From: Bacilli bacterium
GTDB taxonomy: Bacteria > Bacillota_I > Bacilli_A > RF39 > UBA660
Direction of reading: 5' to 3'
Assembly (NCBI GenBank): GCA_017416535.1
Contig: JAFQCG010000003.1
Coordinates: 62,001-126,000, forward strand
Length of the DNA: 64,000 nt
Shown: positions 32,741 through 63,600 of the stretch, piece by piece
How positions within the stretch are numbered: position 1 is the stretch's first letter
How the letters are laid out: each line of letters begins with the position of its first letter
The notes under the pieces: model-generated
What the model was told of the DNA's origin: nothing
Seen by the model: only the letters and a program-made list of their open reading frames with translations
Database searches by the model: none
Program-made: the position numbers and the translations under genes

Positions 32741-32805
32741 GTACAATTTATTTATTTTAATGAATTCTTTTGCTATAATAAAAACTGATGTTAGGAGGAA
32801 TTTCT

Positions 32806-36038: not shown

Positions 36039-36092
36039 TAAGGCACAACGATAAAATCGTGCAAATAAGTAAAAAAATAGTGGAGGAAAATT

Positions 36093-37484
36093 ATGAAAAA
36101 TAAGCGTGCTAAGAAAATAAGAAATCTAGTATTTATTTGTGTTCTATCAGCAATCTTATTAACAGTATCAACTTATGCGTGGTTCGTTGGATTACAAACA
36201 GTTAGAGTTAATCCATTCGACGTTGAAATCGCTGTTACTGATGGTTTAGCATTATCAGTTGATGGTGTAGATTTCTACGACACTGTTACAATTAACGGTG
36301 AAAAAGAAAGTGTTGATGCTATTAAAAGTGCTTACGCAAGTAACACAAATAGCTGGACAAAATTAAAACCAGTTTCAACAATTGGTACAATGAGTTCAGA
36401 TACAAGCCGTATGGTTTTATTTGAAAAGAGTAGTTTAACTGCTTCAGATAAAGGATATAGATTATTATCTGAACAATTAGTTAATACTGAAAAAGAAGCT
36501 GAAGGATATGTTGCATTCGATTTATTCATCAAAAACTTATCTGGTGAAAAATACTATGCAAAAAACAATGAAGCTAATGAAGAAGCAATTTACCTAACAT
36601 ATGATTCTGCTGTATCAGTAGGAAGTACAGGTAAAAACGGTACAGGAATTGAAAACTCAGTTCGTGTAGCATTTGCTCAAATCGGACGTGCTAAAGCTGA
36701 TAAAGCAGCTTCAGTATTCCAAGAAATGTCTTGTGCAAATGCTGAAAATGCTGACGAAAGCGTTGCAACAGGAATTTGTAGAACAGCAAAAATCTGGGAA
36801 CCAAATGATACTAAACACGTTGCAAATGCAATTAGTTGGTATAATAAATCTTGTAAAGTAAGAGCTGGAGAAGGAGAAGCTTGTACAGCAGTAACAGATG
36901 GATCTCAAACTGCTACATATGCAGTTGCAAAAGCAATTACTGAAAATGCTGCAGATGACGCTAGAGATTACGAAGTAGATATTTATGATGGTCTTAACGG
37001 ATATGAACAATCAATTACTGATGGATATCTAAATAAAGTTGATACATTTACTGCAACAGAACAAGCTGAAAAAGCTGAAAAACGTAATGTATTCATGACA
37101 TTAGCTCCAAATAGTGTAACTAAAGTAAGAGTTTATGTATATATCGAAGGACAAGACGTTGATAACTATGATTTTGCTCAATTAGGACATGCAATCAAAG
37201 TTAACTTCGGATTCACTAAAGAAAGATATACTACTGATGATTTCGAAGATGAGCCAGTAACATTCATTCCAGGAGCAGAAAATACTAAAAGAGTAGGATA
37301 TACAGCTACAGGAGAAATTTCAGCAATTTCTGATAGTGAAATCGTTTATGATTCTGCAAGTAAAGCATTCTATTACTTAGATTCATTAACAAAAACATCA
37401 TTCACTTTCAAAGATGGTGAAACAGAAAAAACTGCTACATACGCAGAAGCAACTGGATGGACAATTGCAGACAAAACTGCTTAA
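36093..37484 (+). CDS. SipW-signal surface/fibre protein, paralogue 2
   Basis: 463 residues, clearly homologous to the preceding gene throughout: ILLTVSTYAWFVGLQTVRVN signal segment, RLLSEQLVN, GIENSVRVAFAQIGR, IWEPNDTKHVANAISWY with four matching cysteines, and NSVTKVRVYVYIEGQDVDNYD. Some stretches are almost identical at DNA level (35628-35705 versus 37095-37172), pointing to recent duplication or gene conversion. Ribosome site GGAGG precedes ATG 36093. Followed by a strong hairpin, so it is likely the most abundant product of the unit. Confidence 0.8.
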   Translation: MKNKRAKKIRNLVFICVLSAILLTVSTYAWFVGLQTVRVNPFDVEIAVTDGLALSVDGVDFYDTVTINGEKESVDAIKSAYASNTNSWTKLKPVSTIGTMSSDTSRMVLFEKSSLTASDKGYRLLSEQLVNTEKEAEGYVAFDLFIKNLSGEKYYAKNNEANEEAIYLTYDSAVSVGSTGKNGTGIENSVRVAFAQIGRAKADKAASVFQEMSCANAENADESVATGICRTAKIWEPNDTKHVANAISWYNKSCKVRAGEGEACTAVTDGSQTATYAVAKAITENAADDARDYEVDIYDGLNGYEQSITDGYLNKVDTFTATEQAEKAEKRNVFMTLAPNSVTKVRVYVYIEGQDVDNYDFAQLGHAIKVNFGFTKERYTTDDFEDEPVTFIPGAENTKRVGYTATGEISAISDSEIVYDSASKAFYYLDSLTKTSFTFKDGETEKTATYAEATGWTIADKTA

Positions 37485-37514
37485 TAATGTCAAAATAAAC
37501 TTATTATAATAAAT

Positions 37515-37570
37515 AAATAAAGGTAACATTTCCCACACCAACTAGTGTTGGGGTGTTACCCTTTATTTGT
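37515..37570 (+). terminator. Strong GC-rich hairpin, probable leaky terminator within the fibre operon
   Basis: AATAAAGGTAACA ... TGTTACCCTTTATT forms a long outer stem, and CCAAC-TAGT-GTTGG an inner stem; it is the most GC-rich hairpin seen here. It ends in a T-poor CTTTATTTG, so termination may be partial, lowering expression of the third paralogue and downstream genes. Confidence 0.65.
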
Positions 37571-37587
37571 ATAAAGGTGGTGTCTAA

Positions 37588-38733
37588 GTGACAAAACAAA
37601 CAACAAAAAAGACAACCAAGACAACAAGAACTAGCACACAAAAGCACCCCAAAACAACAGTAAAATCAGCAAAAAGTACAAGAAAAAGAAAAGTATCAAC
37701 ACCAAGAAAAATAAATAAAAAACTTACAATCATAGTAATTTTATTATTGGCAATTTTACTTATTTTCTCAACTTATGCCTGGTTTTCAACCAACTTAAAT
37801 GTAAAAATTAAAACATTTAGAATGGTTATTCAAAAAAATAGTGACTTATCAATTTCTTTTGATGGAATTAATTTTGAACATAGTTTAGAAATTAATAAAG
37901 AAACAATAATAGATGAATTAAATACATTATATCCAAACCATACAAATCAATGGGCTGCAAATGGATTTATTCCAGTATCTTCAGCTGGTATACCAAATAG
38001 CAATACACCCAAATTTAATGTTTATGAAACAAGTGGTGTAATGTATGCACGAAGAGATCGTGAAAAGTTAAATGGATTCTTAAGGACTCGTTTAGCAAAA
38101 GAAACTGAACCAAGAGAATATAACTCATATTTAGCATTTGATGTATTTATAAAGAATGAAACAGGTTCACCTGTAGCAGATAACTTATATTTACAAGATT
38201 CAACAATTATTCAAGCTGTTGATGAAAATATTACTGAAGAAATGTTAGGTTTAGTCAATTCATTTAGAATCGGATTTGTAAGAATAGGTAGTGTAGGTTT
38301 AAAAGCATCAGTTGATGAAATACAAAATATTTCATGTAATAGTCAATGTGAAGAATTAATATTTGAACCTAATAGTAAGAATCATACGGCTTTATCAATA
38401 GAAAGAGCTGCAAAACACAATGTTCAATTAGTAGATGGTATAAAATATCCAACATATGCTTATAAAGCGGCAGGAGGACCTATCTACGTTAAAGATTCAA
38501 TACCAGGATCAAAACTAGATCCACAATTCTTTGAATTCCAAGAAACAAGAGATGAAAATGATTTTGATAATCCTATTTTCCAAATACCAAATGGTGTTAC
38601 AAAAGCAAGAATCTATATCTGGATCGAAGGACAAGACGTAGACAGTATCGAAACTGACTCTGAAGGAGCAGAAGTAGAAATTGGAATCGACTTTACTAAA
38701 GATACAGCTGGTTGGGATGCTTTTGATGAATAA
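37588..38733 (+). CDS. SipW-signal surface/fibre protein, divergent paralogue 3
   Basis: 381 residues with a GTG start behind AGGTGGTG. A Lys/Thr/Ser-rich cytoplasmic head of ~45 residues precedes the TM/SipW segment ILLLAILLIFSTYAWFSTNL. The body is shorter and more diverged than the two upstream paralogues but keeps FDGINF, YLAFDVFIKNETG, FEPNSKNH and the shared ARIYIWIEGQDVDS. Only two cysteines remain near residue 250. A minor or tip subunit is plausible. A 47-codon gene follows closely. Confidence 0.75.
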   Translation: MTKQTTKKTTKTTRTSTQKHPKTTVKSAKSTRKRKVSTPRKINKKLTIIVILLLAILLIFSTYAWFSTNLNVKIKTFRMVIQKNSDLSISFDGINFEHSLEINKETIIDELNTLYPNHTNQWAANGFIPVSSAGIPNSNTPKFNVYETSGVMYARRDREKLNGFLRTRLAKETEPREYNSYLAFDVFIKNETGSPVADNLYLQDSTIIQAVDENITEEMLGLVNSFRIGFVRIGSVGLKASVDEIQNISCNSQCEELIFEPNSKNHTALSIERAAKHNVQLVDGIKYPTYAYKAAGGPIYVKDSIPGSKLDPQFFEFQETRDENDFDNPIFQIPNGVTKARIYIWIEGQDVDSIETDSEGAEVEIGIDFTKDTAGWDAFDE

Positions 38734-44222: not shown

Positions 44223-44241
44223 TTAGAAAGAAGGGAATATG

Positions 44242-44787
44242 ATGGTAAAGAAAAAAATTATGATTATAGTAGTTTGTTTATTTATCTTAATTTGTGGAAC
44301 CGGAATAACATATTCCCTTTTTACATCTAATTCCAATTTAATTGCAAATCAAAAAATTGCTCAATTTATATTTGATGCATCAAGAACTGATTCAATTGAA
44401 TTGCCAATTACTGATATTAATCCTGGAGATGAACCAGTAAAATATTCATTTCAAGTTGCCAATAATTTAGAACAAAAAAAGAGTGATGTTACAATTAATT
44501 ATCAAGTAATAATTAAAACATATCATTTTATGCCTTTAGAAATAAAACTTTTAAAAGAAGGTATTGAAGAACCAATACTAATCTGTGATGAAACATTTAG
44601 TAGAGATGAAGTTACAAATCAATTAATATGTAATTCTGGAGTACAAAAGATGGTTCATAATGATGAAGTAACTGACAAATATACACTAGAATTAACATTC
44701 CCATCTAAATATAATAGTGATGTTTATGCTGATTTAGTAGATTATATAGATATAGATATAAATAGTTGGCAATCAACAGGGAAGTAG
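44242..44787 (+). CDS. SipW-substrate TasA/camelysin-like protein
   Basis: 181 residues with the SipW-type signal segment IIVVCLFILICGTGITYSLF; cleavage is expected after TYS or similar. The body INPGDEPVKYSFQVANNLEQ and EVTDKYTLELTFPSKY is the TasA/camelysin beta-sandwich pattern (DINPGD...YSFxVxN). Two cysteine residues (LICDE, LICNS) could pair. ATG 44242 gives better spacing to GAAGGG than ATG 44239. Followed eight bases later by another SipW-signal gene. Confidence 0.82.
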   Translation: MVKKKIMIIVVCLFILICGTGITYSLFTSNSNLIANQKIAQFIFDASRTDSIELPITDINPGDEPVKYSFQVANNLEQKKSDVTINYQVIIKTYHFMPLEIKLLKEGIEEPILICDETFSRDEVTNQLICNSGVQKMVHNDEVTDKYTLELTFPSKYNSDVYADLVDYIDIDINSWQSTGK

Positions 44788-44794
44788 GTGAAGT

Positions 44795-45694
44795 ATGAAA
44801 AACGAAAAAGTAACAAAACATTTATTTTACTCATTAATTGGTGTAATTCTTTTAGTATTATTAACAAGAGGAATTACATATGCAAAGTATGTATCAGATG
44901 CAGCTTTTAATTATTATTTAAGTTCAAAAGGATTCTATTTTGAAAGTGAAGAATTAGATACAAAAGAAAATAAAATAACTGATACATCGTGGGATGGAGA
45001 AAAAATTTCCTTCTCAATAACTAATAGTAAAAATAAGTTTATAGCATCAGAATCAGACATTAAATATGAAATATCTTGTACAATAGATGAAGAAGATACA
45101 ACAAAAAAATGTTATTTAAATGGCACTGAAGAAAGTAAAATAACTGGACAATTATCAGCAGCATTTGGATGTTTAAATGAAACTGATGATAAAGTTGACA
45201 CATCAAGTTATACAGAAAATCAATGTGAAAATTATACGTGGACATATGTACCGACAAAAGCAGAACACTACTTTGAAGTTGTTGATACAAAAGGAAATCC
45301 TGTTGATACAGCAACAGTAATCGTGACAGCAAAGTCAAAAGAACCATATGAAAAAACAATTAGTGCAAAATACATATTAACAAAAGACAGCAGTGACATT
45401 GGAACATTAAGTTTAAAATATGAGTCAAAAGATAATTATGAAAATGTTATAATTACAAATTCATATAATGAAGATAAATGTTTAAAATTAACATGGAATG
45501 CTGATGATCTAAATATTGATGAATATAACTCTAATATTATTTCATCAAAAACAAACTCTAATAATTATATAAATGAAATTATATTTAAGGTATCAAAAAA
45601 AGATAGTTTAAATTATACATTTTATAAGAAAAATACTGAAAAAACTTTCTCAGAAGCAGATTTTACTTTAGTTGAAACAACTGAATGTCAATAA
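44795..45694 (+). CDS. SipW-signal secreted protein with Cys-rich domain
   Basis: 299 residues. Signal segment FYSLIGVILLVLLTRGITYA followed by KYVSD has the TYA-xYVS form seen in SipW-dependent proteins. The body contains DGEKISFSITNSKNKF and pairs of cysteines (SCTIDEE, KKCYLNG, GCLNETD, QCENYTW, KCLKLTW), suggesting disulfides outside the cell. The C-terminal FYKKNTEKTFSEADFTLVE ends with ECQ and no wall anchor. Probable fibre component exported with its neighbours. Confidence 0.75.
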   Translation: MKNEKVTKHLFYSLIGVILLVLLTRGITYAKYVSDAAFNYYLSSKGFYFESEELDTKENKITDTSWDGEKISFSITNSKNKFIASESDIKYEISCTIDEEDTTKKCYLNGTEESKITGQLSAAFGCLNETDDKVDTSSYTENQCENYTWTYVPTKAEHYFEVVDTKGNPVDTATVIVTAKSKEPYEKTISAKYILTKDSSDIGTLSLKYESKDNYENVIITNSYNEDKCLKLTWNADDLNIDEYNSNIISSKTNSNNYINEIIFKVSKKDSLNYTFYKKNTEKTFSEADFTLVETTECQ

Positions 45695-46385: not shown

Positions 46386-48395
46386 ATGAAAGAAAAGAAT
46401 AAAGGTATTGTCAAGAAGATTATAAACATCACACTTGATGTATTCATTGTTATGCTAGGAGTTATTCTTTTAATAACAGTTTATAATAACGTTCAAGTAA
46501 AAATATTAGGTCATGATTATGCAAGTTTCTTTGGACATTCAGTATTTGAAGTTCAAACAGGAAGTATGGGAGAAATCATAGAACCCGGAGATTGGATAGT
46601 AGTTAAATATGAAAAAAATATTAAGCTAAATGATATTGTTACTTTTGAACATAAAGGAGAATATATAACACACCGTGTAATTGAAGCATATAACGGAACA
46701 TATGTAACAAAAGGTGATGCTAATACAGCAAAAGATGCTCCAATAAGTAAAGAACAAATAGTTGGTAAAGTAGTTAAAGTAATACCAAACTTTGGAATAC
46801 TAAGAAAAACAATCTTTAATCCAATTGTACTAGTCGCAATAATAATTACATTGTTCTTTCTAAATCAAGTATTTAAGAAAACAACAAAAGAAGATATTGA
46901 AAAAGAAAAAGCTCTAAAAGCAAAATTAAGAAGAGCATTAAAACTTGATACACCAGAGGAATCAAAAGAAAAAATTGAAAAAGTACAACTTGAAAAAGAA
47001 GAAACTAAGAAAGAAGAACCAAAAGAAGAAATAAGAGAAGTAAAAGAAGAAAAAGTTGAATTAACTAAAGAACAAAAAGAAAAAGTTAAAGCAGAACTTG
47101 AAAATACTTCTGATATTGAAAAGACATTATTCTTCAGAATGGTTTCAGTAGATAAAGATGAACTTTCAAATGTTTATGAAGAAATTCCAAAAGAAATAGA
47201 AGAGCAAAGTGAAAAAGCTAAAGAAAACATTAAAGAAGGCGAAAAAGAAGAAGTTGAAGTTTCAGAAGATAAAATAAAAAGTAAATTAGAATTAATTCAA
47301 AGAAAGAAAAAGAAATGTAAAAACATCATTGAAAAAGCAATGTTAATTAAAAAAGAAGAAATCATTGAATTAATGACACTACTAAATAAAGGTGAAGAAT
47401 TAAAAACAAATGAGCCAACAATCAGAGAAAAATTAGTAACAGCATATATTGATGCTAAATACTATAATAACTGTGGTAATATCAACCTAGCATACAATGG
47501 TAAAAATATGCTAACAAAAGTTGATTCACTAATTGAAAAAGTTGGAGAAAACTTAACAAATTCTTATAAAGAATCAGATACAAAGTATGCAGAAAAAGTA
47601 GAAAAGAATGTTAAGTTCATGCTTTTAATAAATCACTTAGAAGAAGACTTCAAACTAGAAGATTTACAAAAGAAAAAAGAAACATATAATAAAAGAATTT
47701 TAAAATATATCAAGTTTAATGATTTATCACAACAAGATATCAAAAAATTAATTACAAATATTATGAAAACTCAAAAAACATATAGTGGAATGATTAAGTT
47801 CATTCAATCAAAAATAAATACAAATATGTTTGAACTTAAGTTTAATAAACTTACAAGAAAAGATATGTATGCAGTTGAACTTACTCATAATATTCAATTT
47901 AGTAAAGTATATAGTGATTACATAGTAGATAAGACTTACTCAGAAGGAATAATTGCAGAAGACAAAGTAAAAGTTTTAGGAAATTTATTATTATCACAAA
48001 TGGTAAATGATATGTTAAATGGAGAATTTAATAAAAAATACTTTGTCTATATTCCAGAAAGTATTTACGCAAAAGATAATAAACTTGATCAAGTATTTGA
48101 TATGTTAGATGATGATTTTGCTAAAAAGAATATAAATATTATACTAGCTTACAATGGTCTATCTGATAATAAAAAAGTTATCAAACAATTAATTAAACAA
48201 GGATTTAACTTCTCATTAGATATGAATGATGTAGAACTATTAAAGAAGAGTGATATAAAAGAACTATATGTTTTAGAACATATCTTCATTAGTAGAAAGA
48301 AAGTTGCAAAAACAAACATCATTGATGTTCTACCAGAAGAAGTAAAACCAAAAATACTATATGAGGAAATTTCAAGTAAAATTGGAAATTTCTAG
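46386..48395 (+). CDS. SipW-type signal peptidase fused to a large cytoplasmic domain
   Basis: 669 residues. The first ~165 form a complete SipW-type peptidase: TM helix, FEVQTGSMGEIIEPGDWIVV (catalytic Ser about 60), EYITHRVIEAY (His about 96), TKGDANTAKDAP and a second TM (NPIVLVAIIITLFFLNQVF). About 500 cytoplasmic residues follow: acidic/Lys coiled coil, then an alpha/beta-looking C-terminal domain (KKYFVYIPESIYAKDNKLDQ ... NINIILAYNGLSDNKKV ... FNFSLDMNDVELLKKSD) that I cannot assign. Known SipW proteins end after the second TM, so the tail is unusual. It lies immediately before the McrB-like ATPase. ATG 46386 fits GGGAGTGA. Confidence 0.82.
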   Translation: MKEKNKGIVKKIINITLDVFIVMLGVILLITVYNNVQVKILGHDYASFFGHSVFEVQTGSMGEIIEPGDWIVVKYEKNIKLNDIVTFEHKGEYITHRVIEAYNGTYVTKGDANTAKDAPISKEQIVGKVVKVIPNFGILRKTIFNPIVLVAIIITLFFLNQVFKKTTKEDIEKEKALKAKLRRALKLDTPEESKEKIEKVQLEKEETKKEEPKEEIREVKEEKVELTKEQKEKVKAELENTSDIEKTLFFRMVSVDKDELSNVYEEIPKEIEEQSEKAKENIKEGEKEEVEVSEDKIKSKLELIQRKKKKCKNIIEKAMLIKKEEIIELMTLLNKGEELKTNEPTIREKLVTAYIDAKYYNNCGNINLAYNGKNMLTKVDSLIEKVGENLTNSYKESDTKYAEKVEKNVKFMLLINHLEEDFKLEDLQKKKETYNKRILKYIKFNDLSQQDIKKLITNIMKTQKTYSGMIKFIQSKINTNMFELKFNKLTRKDMYAVELTHNIQFSKVYSDYIVDKTYSEGIIAEDKVKVLGNLLLSQMVNDMLNGEFNKKYFVYIPESIYAKDNKLDQVFDMLDDDFAKKNINIILAYNGLSDNKKVIKQLIKQGFNFSLDMNDVELLKKSDIKELYVLEHIFISRKKVAKTNIIDVLPEEVKPKILYEEISSKIGNF

Positions 48396-48408: not shown

Positions 48409-49947
48409 ATGAATACATTTATAAGATTCTTTTATGAATTCATCTCAATCTTCTTTGATGGATTCATCTCAATATTTAAAGGATTATTTTCAGGACTTGG
48501 AAAGATGTTTAACATACCAGAATATGCTAAATTAATTTCAAGTTATGAAGGTAACTTCAATACATTTGAAAAGGTACTAGTAGTATTGTCAATAATACTA
48601 CTAGTCGTAATTGTTTTAGTAATACTATTACTAATAATTATGTTAATAAGAAAATTAATAAGAAGATATGATAAAGATATTAATAAAGATTCACTTCTGT
48701 CAGAAATTGCAGATTTAAATAAAGAAGTTGCAAGACTTATGAAAGAACGTGATGAAATCATGGCAATGAAAGTTTCTCAATTAGGAGTTAATCCAGAAGG
48801 TGAAGAAGAACCAACTGGTGAAGATACTGAAGAAGGAGAAGAGCAAGATGAAGAAAAAGGAGATCCAACTATCAGATTCCCTAAACTTGCCGCTATTGAT
48901 GCTGAACTTGGTGATTCAAAACCTAAAAACTATGATAATAACTTTACACTTGCAGAGTTAATTGATAACTTCAGATGTTTCTCAGCATCACAATTAAGAC
49001 TATATTATAACTACGAAATACTAAGACCATTCTTCGCAGGTCTTGCTTGTGGTAAGTTAATTATCCTACAAGGTATCTCTGGAACAGGTAAAACTTCCTT
49101 AGCATATGCTTGGGGTAAATTCGTAAAACAAGATTCCTGTGTTTCATCGGTAGAACCTTCTTGGAAAGACAAATCGGATTTCCTTGGATATTTCAATGAG
49201 TTTACTAAAAAGTTCAATGAAACAAGAGCTCTTGGAGAAATCTATGAAGCAGGATTTGATGATGATGTTCATACAATTATCCTAGATGAAATGAACCTTG
49301 CACGTGTAGAATATTACTTCGCAGATTTATTATCAATTCTAGAAATGCCAAGTCGTGATGAATGGTTAGTTGATATTGTATCAAGTGCTTGGCCAACAGA
49401 TCCAAAGAGATTAGTAAAAGGTAAATTAAGATTACCTGGAAACTTATGGTATATCGGAACAATCAATAATGATGACTCAACATTCATGGTAACAGATAAA
49501 GTTTACGACCGTGCTATGCCACTAGATATCAACTCTAAGGTTGCACCATTCAAATGTCGTGAACAAGAAGCAATGGATATTAACTCAAGTTACTTAGAAA
49601 GCTTATTTGCTGATGCAATTGAAAAATTCCCATTGACAGAAAAAGGATATCAATCAGTAGTAGAAATAGACGATTATGTTATTGAACATTTCCGTATTGC
49701 TTTCGGTAACCGTATTATGAAACAATTAAATACTTTCTCTCCAGTATATGTTGCATGTGGAGGAAAAGAACTAGAAGCAATTGATTACTTCATTGCTAAG
49801 AAAATCTTAAGAAAATTTGACCAATTAAGTGTAGCACTTATCAGAGACGAAATTGATCCTTTCATCGCATGGTTAAATAAGAAATTTGGTAAAGGTACAA
49901 TGAAAGAATGTATCGCATACCTAACAAATCTTAAGAAGTCTATTTAG
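48409..49947 (+). CDS. Membrane-anchored McrB-like AAA+ ATPase
   Basis: 512 residues. The N-terminus has an amphipathic region and a strong TM (VLVVLSIILLVVIVLVILLL) followed by a charged linker and acidic stretch (~residues 125-165). The AAA+ domain has Walker A GISGTGKTSLAYAW (about 222-230), VEPSWKDKSDFLGYFN, Walker B TIILDEMNLARVEYYFADLL and sensor GTINNDDSTFMVTDKVYDRA. These are McrB hallmarks. No DNA-recognition domain such as DUF3578 is apparent. McrB proteins are normally soluble GTPase/ATPase motors of restriction systems; a membrane tether beside a signal peptidase and a DUF2357 partner points to an envelope role. GGGGAGTAGG precedes ATG 48409. Confidence 0.88.
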   Translation: MNTFIRFFYEFISIFFDGFISIFKGLFSGLGKMFNIPEYAKLISSYEGNFNTFEKVLVVLSIILLVVIVLVILLLIIMLIRKLIRRYDKDINKDSLLSEIADLNKEVARLMKERDEIMAMKVSQLGVNPEGEEEPTGEDTEEGEEQDEEKGDPTIRFPKLAAIDAELGDSKPKNYDNNFTLAELIDNFRCFSASQLRLYYNYEILRPFFAGLACGKLIILQGISGTGKTSLAYAWGKFVKQDSCVSSVEPSWKDKSDFLGYFNEFTKKFNETRALGEIYEAGFDDDVHTIILDEMNLARVEYYFADLLSILEMPSRDEWLVDIVSSAWPTDPKRLVKGKLRLPGNLWYIGTINNDDSTFMVTDKVYDRAMPLDINSKVAPFKCREQEAMDINSSYLESLFADAIEKFPLTEKGYQSVVEIDDYVIEHFRIAFGNRIMKQLNTFSPVYVACGGKELEAIDYFIAKKILRKFDQLSVALIRDEIDPFIAWLNKKFGKGTMKECIAYLTNLKKSI

Positions 49948-49962
49948 ATAGGGTGGTAAAGA

Positions 49963-51099
49963 ATGAATAATAATTTATTTGATAAAGAATATACAGAAGA
50001 AGCAAGAACTTCGACCAAAAAGTTTTTAAAGAAAATAGAATCAGAAATGGCTTTCCAATCAAAATACAACGGAGACTTGCTTTCTTTTGAGTGGTTGGAT
50101 GAGATAGAAGAAGCATGTCCAAGAATTGATAAAATTGTACGTGTTGCTAAAGTGGCACTAGTTCAAGAAGCAAATGTAGAACTAATTGAAAAAGCAAAAA
50201 GAATTACAGTAGAAAGCGTAAAAGACTTATCTCGCCATACAAACTATATCAATAAATACGATGCAGAAACTGATATGGTAGAACCTGGTAAAATCTTAGA
50301 TATTAGAAATGAAGAAACATTTAATATTTATGAAAATAGATTCTTACATACATTAGTTAATACAATGGAAAGATTCGTTCTTGAAAGAGAAGATGAACTT
50401 AAAGCACTAGATATTACTGATGAAAAATTACTAGAATACAAAGGTAAAACTGATACTGGTAAAGAAAAATTACATATCGAAATAAAAGTTACATCTGAAA
50501 CAAATGCCACAGGCGAAATGAATAAAGAATTAAAAAATAAATTAGATGAATTAAAAGTAAGAATTAAAAGAATTAAAGAATACATAGGTAGCTGGCACAA
50601 AAGTGAAATGATGAAAGCTTTAGATAAAGCTCATATAACTCCAGTAAGATCACCAATTAAAAAGACAAACGTATTCTTAAAAAATCCAAATTTCCGTGTA
50701 GCATCAGCTCTATGGGAATACTTAAATAAGTATGGATTTAATGACAATGAAAATTCAAAAGATAATGTTAATTCTGACGGAAACGATGTTATAAAAGGAT
50801 TCTTAGATCATTCATTCCTAATAAACTACTATGTATTAGATTCGGTTTCAAACTCTAAAAGAGAACAAAAGAAACAACTTTCTAAATATGCAGTAGTAAT
50901 GCTAAAAGAAGAAATAAAAAGAATTGTTGATTTACTACTAAGTTGCGGTTTAAAAATATCAGAAGAAGATATTATGAAACTTGTAGCTGAAGAGTTAAAA
51001 CATGATAAAAGTGATCGTCTAGTAGGAGCAGATGATGTTAAAAAGAAATTTAAAAATGCTATGGACGAATACTTAGAAAGGACACAAGAGTACTTGTAG
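49963..51099 (+). CDS. DUF2357-like partner of the McrB-like ATPase, no nuclease domain seen
   Basis: 378 residues, soluble and helical. It contains ILDIRNEETFNIYENRFLHT, the E-T-x-x-x-Y-E-N-R-F signature of DUF2357 proteins, which pair with McrB-like ATPases and usually carry a PD-(D/E)XK nuclease. Here the C-terminal half is helical (KGFLDHSFLINYYVLDS, VVMLKEEIKRIVDLLL) with no evident D...ExK nuclease core. It begins 15 bases after the ATPase, implying co-expression and complex formation. A non-nuclease role, coupling the AAA+ ring to another envelope component, is inferred. Confidence 0.75.
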   Translation: MNNNLFDKEYTEEARTSTKKFLKKIESEMAFQSKYNGDLLSFEWLDEIEEACPRIDKIVRVAKVALVQEANVELIEKAKRITVESVKDLSRHTNYINKYDAETDMVEPGKILDIRNEETFNIYENRFLHTLVNTMERFVLEREDELKALDITDEKLLEYKGKTDTGKEKLHIEIKVTSETNATGEMNKELKNKLDELKVRIKRIKEYIGSWHKSEMMKALDKAHITPVRSPIKKTNVFLKNPNFRVASALWEYLNKYGFNDNENSKDNVNSDGNDVIKGFLDHSFLINYYVLDSVSNSKREQKKQLSKYAVVMLKEEIKRIVDLLLSCGLKISEEDIMKLVAEELKHDKSDRLVGADDVKKKFKNAMDEYLERTQEYL

Positions 51100-51812: not shown

Positions 51813-53012
51813 ATGGAAAAAAGACATAAAGCATATATGAAATTAAATATAATGACATTATTCTTTATAGCTGTATCATTCATCTCTATCACTCTTGCAT
51901 GGTTTGCATATAGTGGTTTAATAACTGCAAGAACCGAAATTAATGTTAAAGCATGGCATATTGAATTTAACAAAGATGGTGAAGCAGTATCAAATAAACT
52001 TACAATAAGATTAAATGATATATCTCCAGGAATGGAAACAATGAAAGAAGTAATTGATATTAAAAACTTAGGAGATACAGCAGCTGCAGTATCATATGAA
52101 ATATCATCAGCAAGAATACTTGATGATGAACTAGATGTAGAAGAACAAGATAAAGTAAAAGATAAATTATCTCATGATTATCCATTTCATATAAATATGA
52201 GTTTATCAGATAACTTTATAAGAGCACATGATGGAACTGGAATATTTAATATATCAGTATCATGGCCATTTGAATCAGACAATGATAAAGCTGATAGTGA
52301 GTGGGGAAATAAGGCATATGACTTCCAACTTGCTGAATCCAAAAAAGAAGAATCTGAAAGAAGATATTCATTAAAGATAGAAATAAATTTAAAAGCAGTT
52401 CAATATATAGATGAAATTGATGCAATAGACCATAACTATCGACCAGGAACAATAGTATTATATGATGTAGTTAATAATACAAAATGTTCATCAATTAGTA
52501 ATACATGCTTAAAAACATATGTAATTGATAAAGATAATAGATTATCAAATACATCAGTAAGATTATTACCTGACTTATTTAGTGAATATACAAAAGGTAC
52601 TGCTACAGAATATAATGAAAAACTAAATGAGTTAACATCAACTTGGACAGTAACAAAAGAAGGTTTAAAAGCAGAAGATATATTACCAATTATTTCAAAT
52701 GATATAGATGATTCGATAATAATGCGACCAAAGCTATCAAATGAAGCAATAGGATATTTAAATTATGGTACTAGACTAACTGATCAGATGTCCAAAGTAA
52801 TTAGTTATGAAGGAAGTTACAGATTTGTAAATAGTGAATATCCATACTTCTCAACAACAAAATGTTACTGGTTAAATACACCATATAATGAATCTAAACA
52901 ATTTGTAATAAAGAAAATTGATGAAACATATTCAAAGATATATGGAGAAGATAAAACAACAGAATGTAGTATAGTTCCAGTAATAGAGGTTGCTAAAAAG
53001 AATTTAAAATAG
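51813..53012 (+). CDS. SipW-signal surface protein with TasA-like and C-terminal module
   Basis: 399 residues. Signal segment IMTLFFIAVSFISITLAWFA (LAWFAYSG motif). TasA-like sandwich next: AWHIEFNKDGEAV, INDISPGMETMKEVIDIKNL with GDTAAAVSYE. The C-terminal ~180 residues are different and end with YWLNTPYNESKQFVI and TECSIVPVIEVAKKN, resembling the ...RPVIS... module of the first gene of this window (2-1000). Cysteines (TKCSSISNTC) suggest an external disulfide. No wall anchor. Last gene of the 46-53 kb operon. Confidence 0.78.
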   Translation: MEKRHKAYMKLNIMTLFFIAVSFISITLAWFAYSGLITARTEINVKAWHIEFNKDGEAVSNKLTIRLNDISPGMETMKEVIDIKNLGDTAAAVSYEISSARILDDELDVEEQDKVKDKLSHDYPFHINMSLSDNFIRAHDGTGIFNISVSWPFESDNDKADSEWGNKAYDFQLAESKKEESERRYSLKIEINLKAVQYIDEIDAIDHNYRPGTIVLYDVVNNTKCSSISNTCLKTYVIDKDNRLSNTSVRLLPDLFSEYTKGTATEYNEKLNELTSTWTVTKEGLKAEDILPIISNDIDDSIIMRPKLSNEAIGYLNYGTRLTDQMSKVISYEGSYRFVNSEYPYFSTTKCYWLNTPYNESKQFVIKKIDETYSKIYGEDKTTECSIVPVIEVAKKNLK

Positions 53013-53035
53013 AACCAATCGGTTCTATTTTTTTT
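53008..53035 (+). terminator. Intrinsic terminator of the McrB/SipW operon
   Basis: ATAGAACC-AATC-GGTTCTAT stem and run of T after the 51813 gene. Confidence 0.92.
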
Positions 53036-53045
53036 GAATAAATTA

Positions 53046-53076
53046 ATAAAAGAAAAGAACTACTCAGTAGTAGTTC
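53046..53076 (-). terminator. Intrinsic terminator of the leftward SipW-signal gene
   Basis: GAACTACT (53057-53064) / AGTAGTTC (53069-53076) around the 53060 stop, with a T-rich run on the minus strand. Confidence 0.75.
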
Positions 53077-53818
53077 CTTCATTATTTTCTTCTTTTTCAA
53101 TTTCTGATTCAAGTAATTGTTTAAAACTAATTGTTGCTTTAATTTTAAGTTTTCCAACTTCAACTTCTTCATTTTCAGTTTCAGTTTCTTCAGTTTCAAC
53201 TTCTTCAGTATTGTTTACTTGTTCTACTTTGGCTTGTGCAGCATTTAAACCAATTACTGTATCAGCTGCATCATCTTGTTTTTCACCTTCACCCTCAAAC
53301 CATTCAAAGTAAATTCTAATAGTAAATGGTTCAAATGGTTTTTCTTTATTATATAAAACTTGTTCATTAATTGCGTTTTCAATTAATCCATCAACATTAT
53401 TTGTATTATCAATGTCATTTTTATCACCCTCAACACCAGTCTTATCCAAGAATGAATATTGAGTAATCATTAAGTCTGGCATATCCTTATTTAATACTTC
53501 TAATGAAATATTATATCCAAATGATACATTAACATTAGTTGGGTCAACTGCTATATCAAAGTATCCCTTAGAAGAAGGAGCAAAAGTATTAGCCGCAATA
53601 TGCTCATTTTCTATAACTACTGGTTGCAAGTCAATAGACTTAGCTTCACCAGAAGTAATATCTTGAGTATTTACTAATATTTGCCATTTTGCAAATTGTA
53701 CTTCAATATCACCAGTTGTATCTGCAACATATCTAGAATATGTATCACTCATAAAAGCCATTGTTAATGAGAGTGACAGTAATAACAAGATGATTTTAAT
53801 CTTCTTAGATATTGTCAT
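53060..53818 (-). CDS. SipW-signal TasA-like protein, opposite orientation
   Basis: 252 residues, the only leftward gene of the fibre cluster. The signal segment IIMLLLSLSLTMAF-like stretch ends with FMSDTYSRYVADTTGDIEV; TYSRYV and AKWQILVNTQDIT are highly characteristic of SipW-dependent TasA-type proteins (TYARYVS..., VAKWxxxVNG). The body includes KGYFDIAVDPTNVNVSFGYN. The C-terminus is Glu/Thr-rich (NNTEEVETEETETENEEVEV) followed by KLKIKATISF. GGAGG lies eight bases upstream of ATG 53818 on the minus strand. It converges with the 51813 gene and diverges from the transporter at 53998. Confidence 0.83.
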   Translation of the reverse strand: MTISKKIKIILLLLSLSLTMAFMSDTYSRYVADTTGDIEVQFAKWQILVNTQDITSGEAKSIDLQPVVIENEHIAANTFAPSSKGYFDIAVDPTNVNVSFGYNISLEVLNKDMPDLMITQYSFLDKTGVEGDKNDIDNTNNVDGLIENAINEQVLYNKEKPFEPFTIRIYFEWFEGEGEKQDDAADTVIGLNAAQAKVEQVNNTEEVETEETETENEEVEVGKLKIKATISFKQLLESEIEKEENNEGTTTE

Positions 53819-55657: not shown

Positions 55658-58600
55658 ATGGAAGGAAAGAAAAGATACGTTGCCATAGTTCTATTTTTAT
55701 TAATAGGATTAACGTTATTTACCTTCGCGAATCCAGTGGAAGAGGAAAAGGGTTCAAAAGGGAATGGTTCAAATAAACCAGAAGTTTCTGATAAAGACAC
55801 AACTGATGGAACTTTAGGTTCATTAGAGAACCAACAACAAAATCCAACTCAAGTACTTAACCAAGTTGCTGAAGATACTTCATATGAAGATGCATTAGCT
55901 GCAGTAGAAAGAGCTGAAGCATCACTTGAAGAACTTGATGTTGAAGAAGCACGTGACTTAATAGAACAAGTTACAAATCAAAATCAAAAAGACGAATTAA
56001 CAGAAAGAGTAGATATCGTTGAAGAAGCAATCGAAGCTATCAAACTAGTTGAAGAATTAGAAAAGATGGTAGAAGATGCTGAAGAAAGAGAAGATATCTT
56101 ATCATCTGTTGATTATCGTACAGATAAAGAAATAATTGAAAAGGTAGAAGCTTTAAGAAATGAAGAAGTTCAAGAAAGTTTACAAGATCGTCTACAAATC
56201 TTAAGCAGAATACTTGATGACAACACAGCACCAACTTACGAAGGTGTAGAAGATGGCGAAACAACTAAGGAAGACGTTTCAATTACATATAGTGATACTG
56301 ATGAAGAAACAAATACAGAAAATGAAGTAACTGTTAAAGTAACACTAAATGGAGAAGAAATTGAATTCCAAGATAAGTTTACTGAAGAAGGTGACTATGT
56401 AGTAACACTTACAGATGAAGCTTTCAATGAAACAAAAATCACATTCACAATAGATAAAACAGCTGCTAAGTATCATGCAGTTAATGCAAACGTTAATGGA
56501 TATAAGAATAATGTAAAAACACAATATGCTAAAAATGGAAATACAATTACAGCATATATTTCAATGAATGAAGAATTAGATCATAATCCAACATTCAAAT
56601 TCTACATTAATGGTAAAAAAGTACAAGAAGTAGCTAAAGAAGATGTAATTGCATCAATTGGAAGCAATACAGAATACCCATATGTATATACTGCTAAATT
56701 AAAAATTGATGAAAACGTAGAAGCAGAAGATGGTTTAATTACATTTAAAGTTGTAGACATAGTTGATAAAGCTGGAAACAAATCAGACGATATCACAAAA
56801 ATGACTCCAACAGGAAAAACACTTAACTTAGATAGAACTGCTGCAAAAGCAAAATATGTAGCTATTCTTTCAAAAGGAAACAACTATCTTTATGCTAAAA
56901 ACGGAGATACAATCAGATTCTTAGTTGCATTTAACGAAGAAGTACAAATTCCAAGTAACTACAAGGATGGTTCATTCATTTTAGAAATCAATGGACAAAA
57001 AGTTCACTTTATGAGATCTCAAGGTGCTGGATATGAATATATCGCAGAATACAAGATTCCAGAAAATGAAGCAAACCTAGCTGAAGGTGAACTAACATTT
57101 GCAATCAGTGGATACACAGATATAAATGGAAATGTAGGAGAAGTTCTAACAGAAGCTACACATGGAACTTACAATAAAGTTATTTATGATAGAACTAAAA
57201 ATATGGTAACATTTACGACATTATCAACAGATAATAGTTATGTAGATGGAAATGTATACTATGTTAAAAATGGTAATACAATTACATTCAGAATGGGTGT
57301 AAGAGAAAAATTTGCAACTGCTCCAGTTGTAACAATTGGTGGTATGAATGTTGAATTAGAATATGTTAAATATTTCTCACAACCAAACCATCATGAATAC
57401 AAAGGAACAGTTACAATTCCAACTGATGAAAAAGATTTAGCAGAAGGAACATTACCAATTGCAATTTCTAATATTACAGACTTAGCTGGAAACCAAGGAT
57501 TTATATACAATTATCCAAAAAGTGCTCCAGTTGAATCAGTTAATAAGAAAGAAACAACAAATCATAAATCAGTAGTATATGACAAAACTGAAAACTTTGT
57601 TGTATCTACATCATTCTCTACTTCAAGAAAATTAGTAGATAATAATGTATACTATGTAACATACGGAGATACAGTTACATTAACAATTGGAACAAAAGAA
57701 AAATTCTCTGCAAAACCAAATGTATTAATTGGTGGTAAAGAAGTAACATTATCTAATCCAAAATACTTTGTTGCAGAAGACAGATATCAATATACTGCAA
57801 CACTAAAAGTTGATGAAACAACTGAATTAGTTGATGGAAAAGTTCCATTTGAAATTTCAAATGTAACTGATATGGTAGGAAATGAAGGTTTCCGTTATCA
57901 ATATCCAAAGAGTAAACCAGTAACAAATGTTAAAAAGAATGTTACAACAAATGGTAGAAGTGTATATGTTGATGTTGTTGGACCAGAAGTAACTCCAAAT
58001 TACAGTGAAAAAACAGTTGAAGAAGATTCAGCTGATGAATTCACTGATTACCCAACATTTACAGTTACTGATAACTCTGGATTAACAGTTTCACAAGAAC
58101 TTATATCTGGAGAAGTTAATATTCATAAAGTAGGAACTTATAGATTAGTATATAGATTTACTGATCAATTAGGAAACTACACTGATGTTAAAGTAAAAGT
58201 TAATGTAGTTGATACAACAGCACCAGTAATAAGTGGAATAACAAACGGAGCATACTATAATACTCACGATACTCATGCTATTCCAACAGCAACAGATAAA
58301 AATGGAGCAGTAATGTTCATAAGAACTGAATTAGGCGATTTAAAACTTACTTCTTTCTTAAAGAAAGAAAAAGAAATTAAATTAGTTGGTACATATAAAA
58401 TATGGGCAGTAGATAAATATGGTAATAAATCAGAAGAAGTTACTATTCATGTAGACCCATATGCACCAAAAGTATTAGTACTTGATAGATTAGAAAATGT
58501 ATCAGGAGCATACTTACCAATTAAGCCAGTTATCTTAGAACATAACTTAGATAAAATTGTTCTTAAACTAAATGGACAAGAAATTCCATATGAAAAAGGA

Positions 58601-60028
58601 CAACAATTAACTAAAGATGGTAACTATGAAATGTTAGTTACTGATAAAGCTGGAAATGAAACAAAAGTAACATTCACAATGGATAGTGTTGCACCAACAA
58701 TGATGATTAGCCCATTATCACTAGGAGTGGTAGATGAACTAGACATCAACAAAATAAACAGCATTGGTGGAGATATTATCTTAAGTGAAGATGCTGAATT
58801 CCAATTATTAAAAGCTAACAAGAATGTAACAATTCTAGACAAAAATATTCCTATCTACGAATATGTAAAACTTCCAGAAGACGGAATCGTTGATGAAGAA
58901 GGACAATACATTTTAGTAGCATATGATAAAGCATATAATGTAACAGCAGCTAAATTTACAGTTGATAGAACAGCTCCAGTAGTAACTGGTGTTGAAGATG
59001 GTAAATACTACAATACTGATGTAACAATCAATATTGAAGAAGCTAACTTAAATGAAGTAATGATTTTAGGAACTACATTATATAAAAATAATTTACCAGT
59101 AGAATTCAAAAACGGTGATACAATCACTGCTGATGGAAACTATAAATTAGTAGCAAAAGATACAGCTGGAAATGAAGCTGACCCAGTAACATTCGTTATT
59201 GATAAGACAGCACCAGTTATCGAAGTTCCAGTAGAAAAAGAAGTTCTACAAGGAACAACACCAGTATCTGTAGTTGCTAAAGTAACAGATAAAAACGTTG
59301 ATTCTAAAAATTTAGTTCCAAACGTTACAAAAATTGTTGACGGAGTAGAAACAGATTTAGGATTACAAGAAACAATTGATGTTACAACTAACGGAGTAAC
59401 ATACAAATTATTCTATACAGTTACAGATAAAGCTGGAAATACAACTTCAGTAGAATTAACAACAACAGTAGTTAATATTACATACGAAGTAAGATTCAAT
59501 CAAACAACATATGAAGTATCATATAATGGACAAGTTCATAACGTTCCAAAAGATGCTAAATTCATCATGATTAAAGATGGTGTTGAATCAGAAGTAACAG
59601 ATGCAGTAATTAATTATTCATCTGAAACAGAAATGAAAAACGCTGGAGAATATACAATTAAAGCTGAATTAAACGGATATAGCACAACTGCTACATACAA
59701 AATTAAGAAAGCTAAAATTGATGTTGTATTCCCATCAAAAAAACTTACTAAAGGTACAACTTTAGCAAGTTTAATCGATGAACTTTCAGTAACTGGAAAC
59801 TACGAACAAGAAAATATTTTAAACTATACATTATTCAATAATAATAAATTAAAAAATGTTGACATAGTAGAAGAAGTAACATACGTAAAAAAAGTACCAT
59901 TCCTTGGTAATATTACTGTACCAGTTACATATACTATGACAGTAACATTAAAGGATGAATATAAAAATAATTATGAATTAAATGGTTTAAATGATTTCGT
60001 AAAAATATTTGATACTGAACAAGAATAA
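55658..60028 (+). CDS. Giant secreted protein with helical stalk and Ig-like/MBG repeats
   Basis: 1456 residues. Signal peptide KKRYVAIVLFLLIGLTLFTFA. Residues ~65-190 are helical (ALAAVERAEASLEELDVEEA), like the paired-helix modules of Firmicutes surface proteins. Then follow bacterial Ig-like units: three repeats of ~115 residues with VYYVKNGNTITFRMGVREKF and VTIGG, and VDTTAPVISGITNGAYYNT-type units (DUF5011/Ig-like). An MBG-like domain (EVRFNQTTYEVSYNGQVHNV) closes it. The C-terminus (LNDFVKIFDTEQE) carries no LPXTG, SLH or TM anchor, so retention is unexplained. AGGAGGGTC precedes ATG 55658, as in the paralogue at 60693. Probable adhesin or matrix protein. Confidence 0.85.
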   Translation: MEGKKRYVAIVLFLLIGLTLFTFANPVEEEKGSKGNGSNKPEVSDKDTTDGTLGSLENQQQNPTQVLNQVAEDTSYEDALAAVERAEASLEELDVEEARDLIEQVTNQNQKDELTERVDIVEEAIEAIKLVEELEKMVEDAEEREDILSSVDYRTDKEIIEKVEALRNEEVQESLQDRLQILSRILDDNTAPTYEGVEDGETTKEDVSITYSDTDEETNTENEVTVKVTLNGEEIEFQDKFTEEGDYVVTLTDEAFNETKITFTIDKTAAKYHAVNANVNGYKNNVKTQYAKNGNTITAYISMNEELDHNPTFKFYINGKKVQEVAKEDVIASIGSNTEYPYVYTAKLKIDENVEAEDGLITFKVVDIVDKAGNKSDDITKMTPTGKTLNLDRTAAKAKYVAILSKGNNYLYAKNGDTIRFLVAFNEEVQIPSNYKDGSFILEINGQKVHFMRSQGAGYEYIAEYKIPENEANLAEGELTFAISGYTDINGNVGEVLTEATHGTYNKVIYDRTKNMVTFTTLSTDNSYVDGNVYYVKNGNTITFRMGVREKFATAPVVTIGGMNVELEYVKYFSQPNHHEYKGTVTIPTDEKDLAEGTLPIAISNITDLAGNQGFIYNYPKSAPVESVNKKETTNHKSVVYDKTENFVVSTSFSTSRKLVDNNVYYVTYGDTVTLTIGTKEKFSAKPNVLIGGKEVTLSNPKYFVAEDRYQYTATLKVDETTELVDGKVPFEISNVTDMVGNEGFRYQYPKSKPVTNVKKNVTTNGRSVYVDVVGPEVTPNYSEKTVEEDSADEFTDYPTFTVTDNSGLTVSQELISGEVNIHKVGTYRLVYRFTDQLGNYTDVKVKVNVVDTTAPVISGITNGAYYNTHDTHAIPTATDKNGAVMFIRTELGDLKLTSFLKKEKEIKLVGTYKIWAVDKYGNKSEEVTIHVDPYAPKVLVLDRLENVSGAYLPIKPVILEHNLDKIVLKLNGQEIPYEKGQQLTKDGNYEMLVTDKAGNETKVTFTMDSVAPTMMISPLSLGVVDELDINKINSIGGDIILSEDAEFQLLKANKNVTILDKNIPIYEYVKLPEDGIVDEEGQYILVAYDKAYNVTAAKFTVDRTAPVVTGVEDGKYYNTDVTINIEEANLNEVMILGTTLYKNNLPVEFKNGDTITADGNYKLVAKDTAGNEADPVTFVIDKTAPVIEVPVEKEVLQGTTPVSVVAKVTDKNVDSKNLVPNVTKIVDGVETDLGLQETIDVTTNGVTYKLFYTVTDKAGNTTSVELTTTVVNITYEVRFNQTTYEVSYNGQVHNVPKDAKFIMIKDGVESEVTDAVINYSSETEMKNAGEYTIKAELNGYSTTATYKIKKAKIDVVFPSKKLTKGTTLASLIDELSVTGNYEQENILNYTLFNNNKLKNVDIVEEVTYVKKVPFLGNITVPVTYTMTVTLKDEYKNNYELNGLNDFVKIFDTEQE

Positions 60029-60692: not shown

Positions 60693-63600
60693 ATGCAAAT
60701 AAAGAAAAGATATTTTGTTATTGCCCTAGTATTATTACTAGGACTAACAACATTCTCTTTTGCGAATCCTAAAGAAGAAATGGGTTCAAGAAAGACTGCC
60801 AAAGGTATCTCTGAAACAGTTACCAATGACATAAAAGAAAATAATAGTTATTCTGAAGCATTAGAAGCGGTAGAAGAGGCAGAAGAAAATCCAACTGAAG
60901 AAACAGTTGAAACTGCAAGAAATGAAATAAGAAATGCAAATGATGCAACAGAAGAACAAGTACAAAATCTACAACAAAGAGTGGATGTTGTTGAAGAAAC
61001 AATTGATGTTGCTGCATTAGTTAAAGAAGTAGAAGTGTTAGCTGAAGTAAAAGAAACAAGAGAACAAGCTAAATCTAAATATCCAAATGCAGAAACAGAA
61101 GTAAATAAGTTAGATGAAGGAGAAGTAAAAAACAATTTAGAAAATCGTCTAGCAAAAGTATCAAGATTACTAAATGATACAAATGCTCCTGAAGTTACAG
61201 GTATAGATGAAAATGTGCCAACAAACAAAAATGAAATAATTTATGTAAAAGATGAATTCTTAGCATCAGTAATAATTGATGAAACTGAATATACAGACTT
61301 TATTGTAGAAGGTGATATTCTAAAATTTGAAAAGAAAGTTACAACAGAGGGAACTCATACTGTAACAGCAAAAGATAAATTAGGAAACACAACTACTAAG
61401 ACATTTATGATTGATAAAACAGAAGCTAAGAAAAATGCAGTAAATGCAAATGTTAATGGATATGATAATAAGGTAAATGAGCAATATGCAACTAACGGAA
61501 AAAAAGTAACAGCATATATTACTCTTACTGAAGAACTAAGAGAAAATCCAACATTTACATTTTATGCAAATGGAAAAGAAATAAAAAAGGTTAAAGACGA
61601 AGTAGTTGCAAGTGCTTCAACAAATGCTAAATATCCATATAAATATACTGCAGTACTAGAAATCAACGAAGAACTAGCAGCAGAAGATGGAGAATTAACA
61701 TATACAGTAACTAATATGTATGATGTAGCAGGAAATCAAACACCTGATATTACAAAACTATCAGTAACAGGAAAAGTTCTTAAATTAGATAGAACTCCAA
61801 ACAGAGTAACATTCACAACTATTTCAACTGATAATAAAAACGTAGAAGGAAAAGTATATTATGTAACTGAAGGAGATACTATAACATTCAGAATGGGTGT
61901 AAGAGAGAAATTCTCAGTTAATCCAACAATTACAATTGGTGGTAAAGAAGTAACATTAGAATATGTTAAATACTTCCCATCACCAAATCATCATGAATAT
62001 AGAGGAACTATAAAACTTGATGATACATTTAAAGATGGAAATCTAAATATAATAATTACTGGTTCAAAAGACATAGCAGGTAATACTGGTTTCTACTACC
62101 AAACAAATGGTAAGAAAGTATTAGAAACAATTACAACAAAAGAAACAACTAATGGAAAATCATTAGTATATGATAATACAGCACCATCAACTACATACGT
62201 TATGATATTATCAAAAGGTGCTAATCATAAATATGCGACTAATGGAGATACAATTAGATTTTTAGTTAGATTTACTGAAGAAGTAGTATTATCTGACGAA
62301 TTCGCAGTAACATTCAATAACGTGACTAAACCACTGGTTCGTTCTGGTGATAAAGCTCAAATCGAATATATTGCAGAGTTCAAAATTTCTAAAGAAGAAA
62401 AGAACCTAGCTGAAGGACCATTAACTTTTGAAGTTAAAGGATTCAAAGATAAATTAGGAAACGCATCAAATCAAGTAGTAACAACTACAAATCACTATAA
62501 ATATAATGAAGTAACATATGACAGAACTGCTCCAGTATTTGTAGAAGAAACTGGATATAACGAAAATGGAATTAATCCATATATTAAATTAGCTGATAAA
62601 AATGATATTTCATTTAAAGTATACAGAAAAGGTACAGAAAAACCAATTCATGAATTTGATAGTACAACAGTAGGTAAATCATTCAAAATAGGATGGCATG
62701 GTGGTGGATTCTACACTATCGTAGCAACAGATGCTGCAGGGAATACAACTTCAAAAGAATTTGAAGTATATCATGTAATTGATTCTATAGATGATTTAAA
62801 GAATGTATTTAAAAATGGCGGTAAGGCTATTTTAACAAAAAATATAACATTAGATACTGCAGTAGAAGTTGCAGAAGGTAAAAAATTAGAAATTGACCTT
62901 AATGGATATGAATTAAAAATTTCTAATCCTGAAAAATCATCAACACGATTAATCAATAATAAAGGAGATTTATCAATTAAAAATGGTAGTTTAATTAACG
63001 AAAAAATCCATGCATATGGAATTGTTGATAACTATGGAACATTAACTATTGATAATGTTGAATTTCGCGACAATGGTTCATTTGATGGATCAACAATTAA
63101 AAATCGTAATGGTAAAGTTAAAATTACAAATTCAAAATTTAATATTATATCATCAGTAGGATATAAGACAGATGAGAAAGAAAAAAATGTTAAATTTGGA
63201 AATGCAGCAGTATGGAGTGACGGAGAATTAGTAATTAAAAACACTAATATCAATAGTGACTCAGAACGTGCATATTCATTAATAGTTAATAGTGGTAAAT
63301 CAACAATTGAAAATGTAAATGCAAAAGGAAAACACGGAGGTTTAGCTGTCACTGGTGGAACAGTCACAATAAATGACATGAAGTATGAAAGTGATGTTCA
63401 CTATGGAATCTATGTTTCTAATAAATCTGAAGCAAACGTTACAATTAATGGCGGAAAATTTATTGGACAACTTCAAGGATTATTAGTTTATAACGAATAT
63501 GATAAAGCAGATGTTAAAGTAACAGTTAATGGAGGAACTTTCTCAAGTAAAACTGGTAAAGAAGCTGCTAAAGTTTCTAAAGGAAATAAAGAATTAACTC

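Follow-up and report, generated by a model that had tools for sequence, protein, structure and literature searches.

A nuclease-free, membrane-anchored McrBC offshoot of the CoCoPALM type probably serves SipW-type surface-protein processing in Bacilli

The neighbouring genes F and G are best read as encoding the core NTPase of a CoCoPALM-type system, an offshoot of McrBC that has no recognisable nuclease, is tied to the membrane and probably serves the SipW-type processing of surface proteins and their assembly; we assign this reading a probability of about 0.65. The loss of the nuclease, the membrane anchor and the neighbouring genes for processing and export argue for surface-protein assembly over DNA destruction. 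The window analysed here is a 64,000-nucleotide stretch of contig JAFQCG010000003.1 from a Bacilli bacterium. Its features are listed in Table 1, and the coordinates of the F and G open reading frames were confirmed to be exact.

Table 1. Features of the F-G locus and its surroundings, with positions in the window.
Feature	Position	Strand	Remark
B, secreted protein, SipW-type cleavage motif	44239..44787	+	
C, secreted protein, SipW-type cleavage motif	44795..45694	+	
D, signal-peptidase homologue, catalytically dead as judged by its residues, 176 aa	45747..46277	+	
E, signal peptidase of the SipW type (Ser65, His101) with a fused cytosolic region, helical and degenerate EAL-like, 674 aa	46371..48395	+	
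EAL-like half of E, about aa 487-664, without EAL motif	47829..48362	+	Model and fold matches
F, McrB-type AAA+ NTPase of the NxD clade, membrane-anchored, 512 aa	48409..49947	+	
F, N-terminal amphipathic helix (about aa 1-33)	48409..48507	+	Hydrophobic moment 0.4-0.58
F, transmembrane helix aa 56-75	48574..48633	+	
F, coiled coil, about aa 90-117	48676..48759	+	Heptad score versus own shuffle
F, Walker A GISGTGKT	49072..49095	+	Invariant in homologues
F, Walker B ILDEMN	49279..49296	+	DEMN in 98/100
F, NxD motif N353-N354-D355, followed by D	49465..49473	+	
F, R368, candidate arginine finger	49510..49512	+	Invariant in alignment
G, DUF2357 protein (McrC N-domain homologue) without recognisable nuclease, 378 aa	49963..51099	+	DUF2357 match aa 21-150
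H, SipW-type signal peptidase, Ser/His intact, 225 aa	51107..51784	+	
I, secreted or anchored protein, conserved beside H	51813..53012	+	TasA-like by eye only
Stem-loop and T run, ending the operon after I	53006..53031	+	Pattern readable on the - strand too
J, secreted protein, SipW-type cleavage motif, convergent, related to I	53060..53818	-	

F combines a McrB-type AAA+ module with a membrane anchor, in agreement with the original prediction on both points. A profile built from 14 F homologues matches the Escherichia coli McrB structures 6hz4 and 6ut6 with E-values of 5e-6 to 1e-5, which bears out the McrB-type identity; in Pfam, the AAA+ domain does not rise above the cut-off. The Walker A motif is found in 100/100 homologues, and the NxD motif reads NNDD in 97 of these sequences and NNDE in the other 3. 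Judging from the sequence, the NTPase of F looks functional, and R368 is a candidate for the role of arginine finger. Comparison of F with two close relatives gives a dN/dS of about 0.09-0.11.

The transmembrane (TM) helix of F was followed across 81 loci, the window plus 80 from a homologue search, which come from Bacilli and Clostridia of gut and environmental origin. It is present in all 81, and a hydrophobic 19-mer starting at aa 55-94, with a peak Kyte-Doolittle value of at least 2.55, occurs in each of the 100 F homologues longer than 480 aa. A misprediction of this helix, the risk attached to the earlier claim of a clear TM ahead of the AAA+ domain, is thereby ruled out. Its flanks carry a mean net charge of -0.9 before and +3.3 after the helix, with a positive-inside sense in 99/100 homologues, and this bias places the C-terminal AAA+ module in the cytosol. 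The N-terminal amphipathic helix of about 30 residues probably rests on the membrane surface, and the coiled coil that follows the TM helix scores above its own shuffles in 98/100 homologues. The TM/coiled-coil segment gives weak matches to the FtsL family (E 0.1-0.2), and a specific homology to FtsB is not seen. The parts ahead of the AAA+ module consist of just the amphipathic helix, the TM helix and the coiled coil, with no evident DNA-recognition domain, as had been noticed before. In one relative (L036, G037:C72) an in-frame TGA interrupts F, and the same genome has a further F, uninterrupted, at another site (G037:C34).

G matches the Pfam family DUF2357 with an E-value of 8e-7, which passes the curated cut-off and bears out the earlier description of the protein as DUF2357-like. 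A PD-(D/E)XK motif was looked for in G and is absent, and Pfam detects no nuclease domain in G or in its larger clostridial homologues, which carry a long coiled coil in place of the nuclease (clear in L118 and L121). The window's G is short and lacks this extension, its model showing just long helices. In the AF2 model of G, generated from 58 sequences and of moderate confidence (pLDDT of 73.6, pTM of 0.46), residues 181-378 are helical except for one short strand, with no sign of the hidden PD-(D/E)XK fold that would have counted against the original prediction. A PDB fold search with this model returns no nuclease among the 50 matches listed, and a PDB sequence search with G gives nothing significant. 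Motif, Pfam, model and fold search thus all speak against a hidden nuclease, a verdict whose strength is limited by the moderate confidence of the model; a very unusual nuclease within G is unlikely. Purifying selection acts on both F and G, with dN/dS values of 0.09-0.13.

Directly beside the pair, and overlooked in the original prediction, are the signal peptidases E and H. Both exceed the 51.85-bit cut-off of TIGR02228, with 61.3 bits (E-value 9e-17) for E and 77.7 bits (9e-22) for H, and H also matches the SipW family NF046067 with an E-value of 2e-18. All 15 fused homologues of the E type retain the catalytic Ser and His, as do 65 of the 67 homologues at the position of H. By family score and these two residues, E and H are classed as SipW-type (archaeal/ER-type) signal peptidase I. 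A third homologue, D, is matched by an HMM built from catalytic homologues only (E 4e-11), and its profile-profile comparison with the active peptidases reaches a probability of 99.8%. The catalytic Ser and His are missing from D and likewise from its counterparts elsewhere, and D evolves under purifying selection (dN/dS 0.14-0.20). A conserved and seemingly dead peptidase stands beside two predicted active ones.

I, the secreted or anchored protein beside H, has no match in Pfam, NCBIfam or PDB sequence searches, and J is related to it by profile-profile comparison (probability 87.6%, E 3.5e-6). Neither protein matches Peptidase_M73 or the TasA structures, and a search of the genome with PF12389 was also negative, so these searches lend no support to a TasA/camelysin identity of I and J, and a surface filament is at most plausible. 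Among proteins encoded nearby that have one N-terminal TM helix, 192/360 carry the SipW-type cleavage motif, against 17/97 such proteins farther off on the same contigs and 9/360 after shuffling. The figure of 17/97 is an imperfect baseline, given that the window carries more such genes at 34566-38733, and the enrichment as a whole is only suggestive, since we wrote the cleavage-motif pattern after inspecting the window sequences. The genes at 34566-38733, upstream of the operon, encode three more single-TM secreted proteins with SipW-type cleavage motifs, showing that the surface-protein locus extends beyond the operon. Downstream, a very large surface protein with weak matches to Ig-like domains is encoded at 55658-60028, and a second very large one, at 60693-64000, runs past the end of the window.

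F and G travel together. G lies directly downstream of F in 80/81 loci, the contig ending at that point in the remaining one, and a SipW-type signal peptidase is found near F in 78/81. Relatives in the window's family have the same arrangement, E-F-G-H-I and a convergent J. The scan that gave the stem-loop after I yielded 6 terminator-like sites against 1.5 expected. All nine genes tested are under purifying selection (dN/dS 0.09-0.33). Almost all sequences in this analysis come from metagenome assemblies. Distances correlate at 0.91 for F-G, 0.74 for G-X, 0.77 for G-I and 0.79 for G-J, values to which shared genome ancestry contributes. In two loci (L098 and L099) one protein of about 2,760 aa follows F and G, replacing the peptidase and secreted-protein genes. 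Within the window's family, F occurs in 27/98 sampled genera whereas SipW-type peptidases occur in 93/98 genomes, so F is not required for SipW-type processing as such; the F-G pair has a dedicated role rather than a part in all such processing. With the peptidases this widespread, comparing their presence or absence with that of F carries no information.

The main rival to the surface-protein reading is a membrane-tethered anti-phage defence, in which F and G would form an NTP-driven sensor or switch like their CoCoNuT kin, and the secreted proteins and peptidases would provide a surface barrier or a membrane-acting effector. The pair descends from within a defence family, according to the account of this lineage in PMC11090510, and the PADLOC defence candidate PDC-M26A matches F across its AAA+ part with an E-value of 1.7e-39. 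Our literature search found no publication on PDC-M26. The patchy occurrence in 27/98 genera, with up to three copies of F per genome, would also suit a defence gene. These points, the excess of SipW-type peptidases over F in the family and the missing TasA/camelysin match of I and J all count against our preferred explanation. However, the constant partners of the pair are processing and secreted proteins, and the neighbour families listed contain neither a recurring nuclease nor a recurring known toxin, which leaves defence rather unlikely.

The surface-protein reading also draws on a cytosolic module that the window's clade carries fused to a SipW-type peptidase, as the C-terminal part of E, and that most relatives encode as a gene of its own directly upstream of F. 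Through this fusion the peptidase is linked, from the cytosol, to F and G. The model of E residues 301-674 has a pLDDT of 90.8, and the best fold matches of the C-terminal part are EAL domains such as that of FimX (probability 1.00, E 9e-4), at a TM-score of just 0.49 by target length. While the fold is alike, the EAL motif is absent at its expected place, Pfam EAL does not match the module and a PDB sequence search with it gives nothing significant; an identity as EAL phosphodiesterase was rejected, the resemblance being one of fold only. A second alternative would give this module the leading part, the F-G ring and the EAL-like domain sensing a cytosolic signal, for instance a cyclic dinucleotide, and switching the peptidases without mechanical work. 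Such a regulatory role would fit the EAL domain of FimX, a regulator domain, as the closest fold, and the genome does encode one GGDEF protein. This protein (L159:1495-3120, minus strand) reads DGNEF at its signature, though, and no true EAL protein was found in the genome, making a working c-di-GMP circuit doubtful, as is a c-di-GMP receptor role for a module that itself lacks the EAL motif. We consider the regulatory alternative improbable.

Compared with described systems, the F-G pair matches best as a variant of CoCoPALM, a system already named by Bell et al. (eLife 2024), which the original prediction had not recognised. In the description given there, CoCoPALM consists of an NxD McrB homologue with an FtsB-like TM/coiled coil, a DUF2357 partner and signal peptidase genes (PMC11090510). 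The McrC homologue 'usually' has a coiled coil as well, and the authors, who propose a link to pilus assembly, put the system off to later work (PMC11090510). Our literature search found no follow-up work on CoCoPALM and no publication that functionally connects SipW with McrB. We assign the window pair by the features described rather than by placement in a tree: F has the NxD motif and carries a TM helix and coiled coil on its McrB domain, the DUF2357 partner is in the operon and signal peptidases adjoin the pair. The dead signal peptidase, the EAL-like module and the SipW-type substrates of the window, in contrast, do not figure in the CoCoPALM description of PMC11090510. What is newly recognised here is the EAL-like cytosolic protein, the conserved dead peptidase and the secreted proteins with SipW-type motifs.

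The CoCoNuT systems are similar in that their McrB homologue combines the NxD motif with a coiled coil and their McrC homologue may be nuclease-free, but in the latter case, as their description states, a nuclease is always encoded nearby (PMC11090510). Window-type loci show no recurrent nuclease among the 25 commonest neighbour families listed (103 neighbour representatives), and within this scope membership in CoCoNuT, which calls for an operon-encoded nuclease in McrC or of the HEPN or another type, was rejected. The window has in common with SipW-TasA(-TapA) of Bacillus subtilis and TasA-CalY-CapP of B. cereus (PMC13082335) its SipW-type peptidases, as well as several secreted proteins in which an aromatic residue follows the predicted site of cleavage. 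It departs from both in secreted proteins that have no TasA/camelysin match. To our knowledge, no McrB or DUF2357 gene has been described in either of these systems.

McrBC of Escherichia coli shares with the window pair the AAA+ module (E 5e-6 to the McrB structures) and the DUF2357 partner. The window pair differs in having no DNA-recognition domain or recognisable nuclease, in its NxD instead of NxxD motif, in its membrane anchor and in its secretion neighbours. Both features that define McrBC type IV restriction, the McrC nuclease and the McrB DNA-recognition domain, are thus missing, the first as judged in part from the moderate-confidence model of G, and the candidate was rejected. An ordinary type IV restriction system, its very divergent nuclease hidden in G or supplied in trans, would accord with the McrB and DUF2357 homology, the no more than moderate confidence of the G model and a D12 class N6-adenine DNA methyltransferase encoded 15 kb from F-G (32788-33663), but it is highly improbable given a helical C-terminal half of G that gives no sign of a nuclease by motif, domain or fold match, an F without DNA-recognition domain, a membrane anchor kept in every homologue and the absence of a recurring nuclease family nearby among those listed.

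More distant NxD relatives of F vary widely in their membrane part. In 14 regions from the same phylum, which are hand-picked examples and not a count, the McrB-type proteins have 1-2 TM helices when flanking G, 4-5 when beside a signal peptidase, or 11-12 when beside G. Those with 11-12 TM helices ahead of the AAA+ module, NxD proteins some 900 aa long, lie beside a DUF2357-type partner at L165:5752-8460 and L172:5901-8567, both on the minus strand. Seven other loci (L163, L167, L168, L169, L173, L175 and L176) encode two TM-bearing McrB-type proteins around one DUF2357-type protein, together with large secreted or anchored proteins. At one distant locus of this kind two of the neighbours are a transglutaminase-like protein and a leucine-rich-repeat protein. 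The neighbourhood of peptidases and secreted proteins, many of the latter with SipW-type motifs, the lack of a recurring nuclease among the families listed and the TM-rich relatives make restriction unlikely and a membrane function likely, which is the direction that the original prediction had suggested.

In McrBC, McrB forms a ring, and the N-domain of McrC binds this ring and stimulates NTP hydrolysis. By analogy, F would assemble into a ring beneath the membrane, on its cytosolic side, and G would bind it and boost NTP hydrolysis in the manner of the McrC N-domain. The EAL-like module and the coiled coil would link this ring with the SipW-type peptidases, and these in turn would cut the secreted proteins of the operon. 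More speculatively, NTP hydrolysis could drive or gate the step in which secreted subunits are released, handed over or polymerised into a surface filament or layer, and D may hold precursors uncut. As a whole, the specific picture of a restriction-derived hexameric NTPase acting as the cytosolic motor of SipW-peptidase-based filament or layer assembly, with EAL-like coupling and a dead peptidase holding the substrate, is tentative, and so is its extension to related machines with 1 to 12 TM helices across the phylum.

These results give concrete form to the proposed link between CoCoPALM and pilus assembly, in the shape of an NTPase pair, two predicted active peptidases and a dead one, an EAL-like module and candidate substrates, a gene set that is conserved across gut Bacilli and Clostridia. 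They also caution that a McrB and DUF2357 pair is not automatically a restriction or defence system. If the proposed function is true, McrBC machinery, known just for cutting nucleic acids, would also power work at the membrane, and AAA+ motors would be added to the sortase-independent ways in which Gram-positive bacteria construct their surface.
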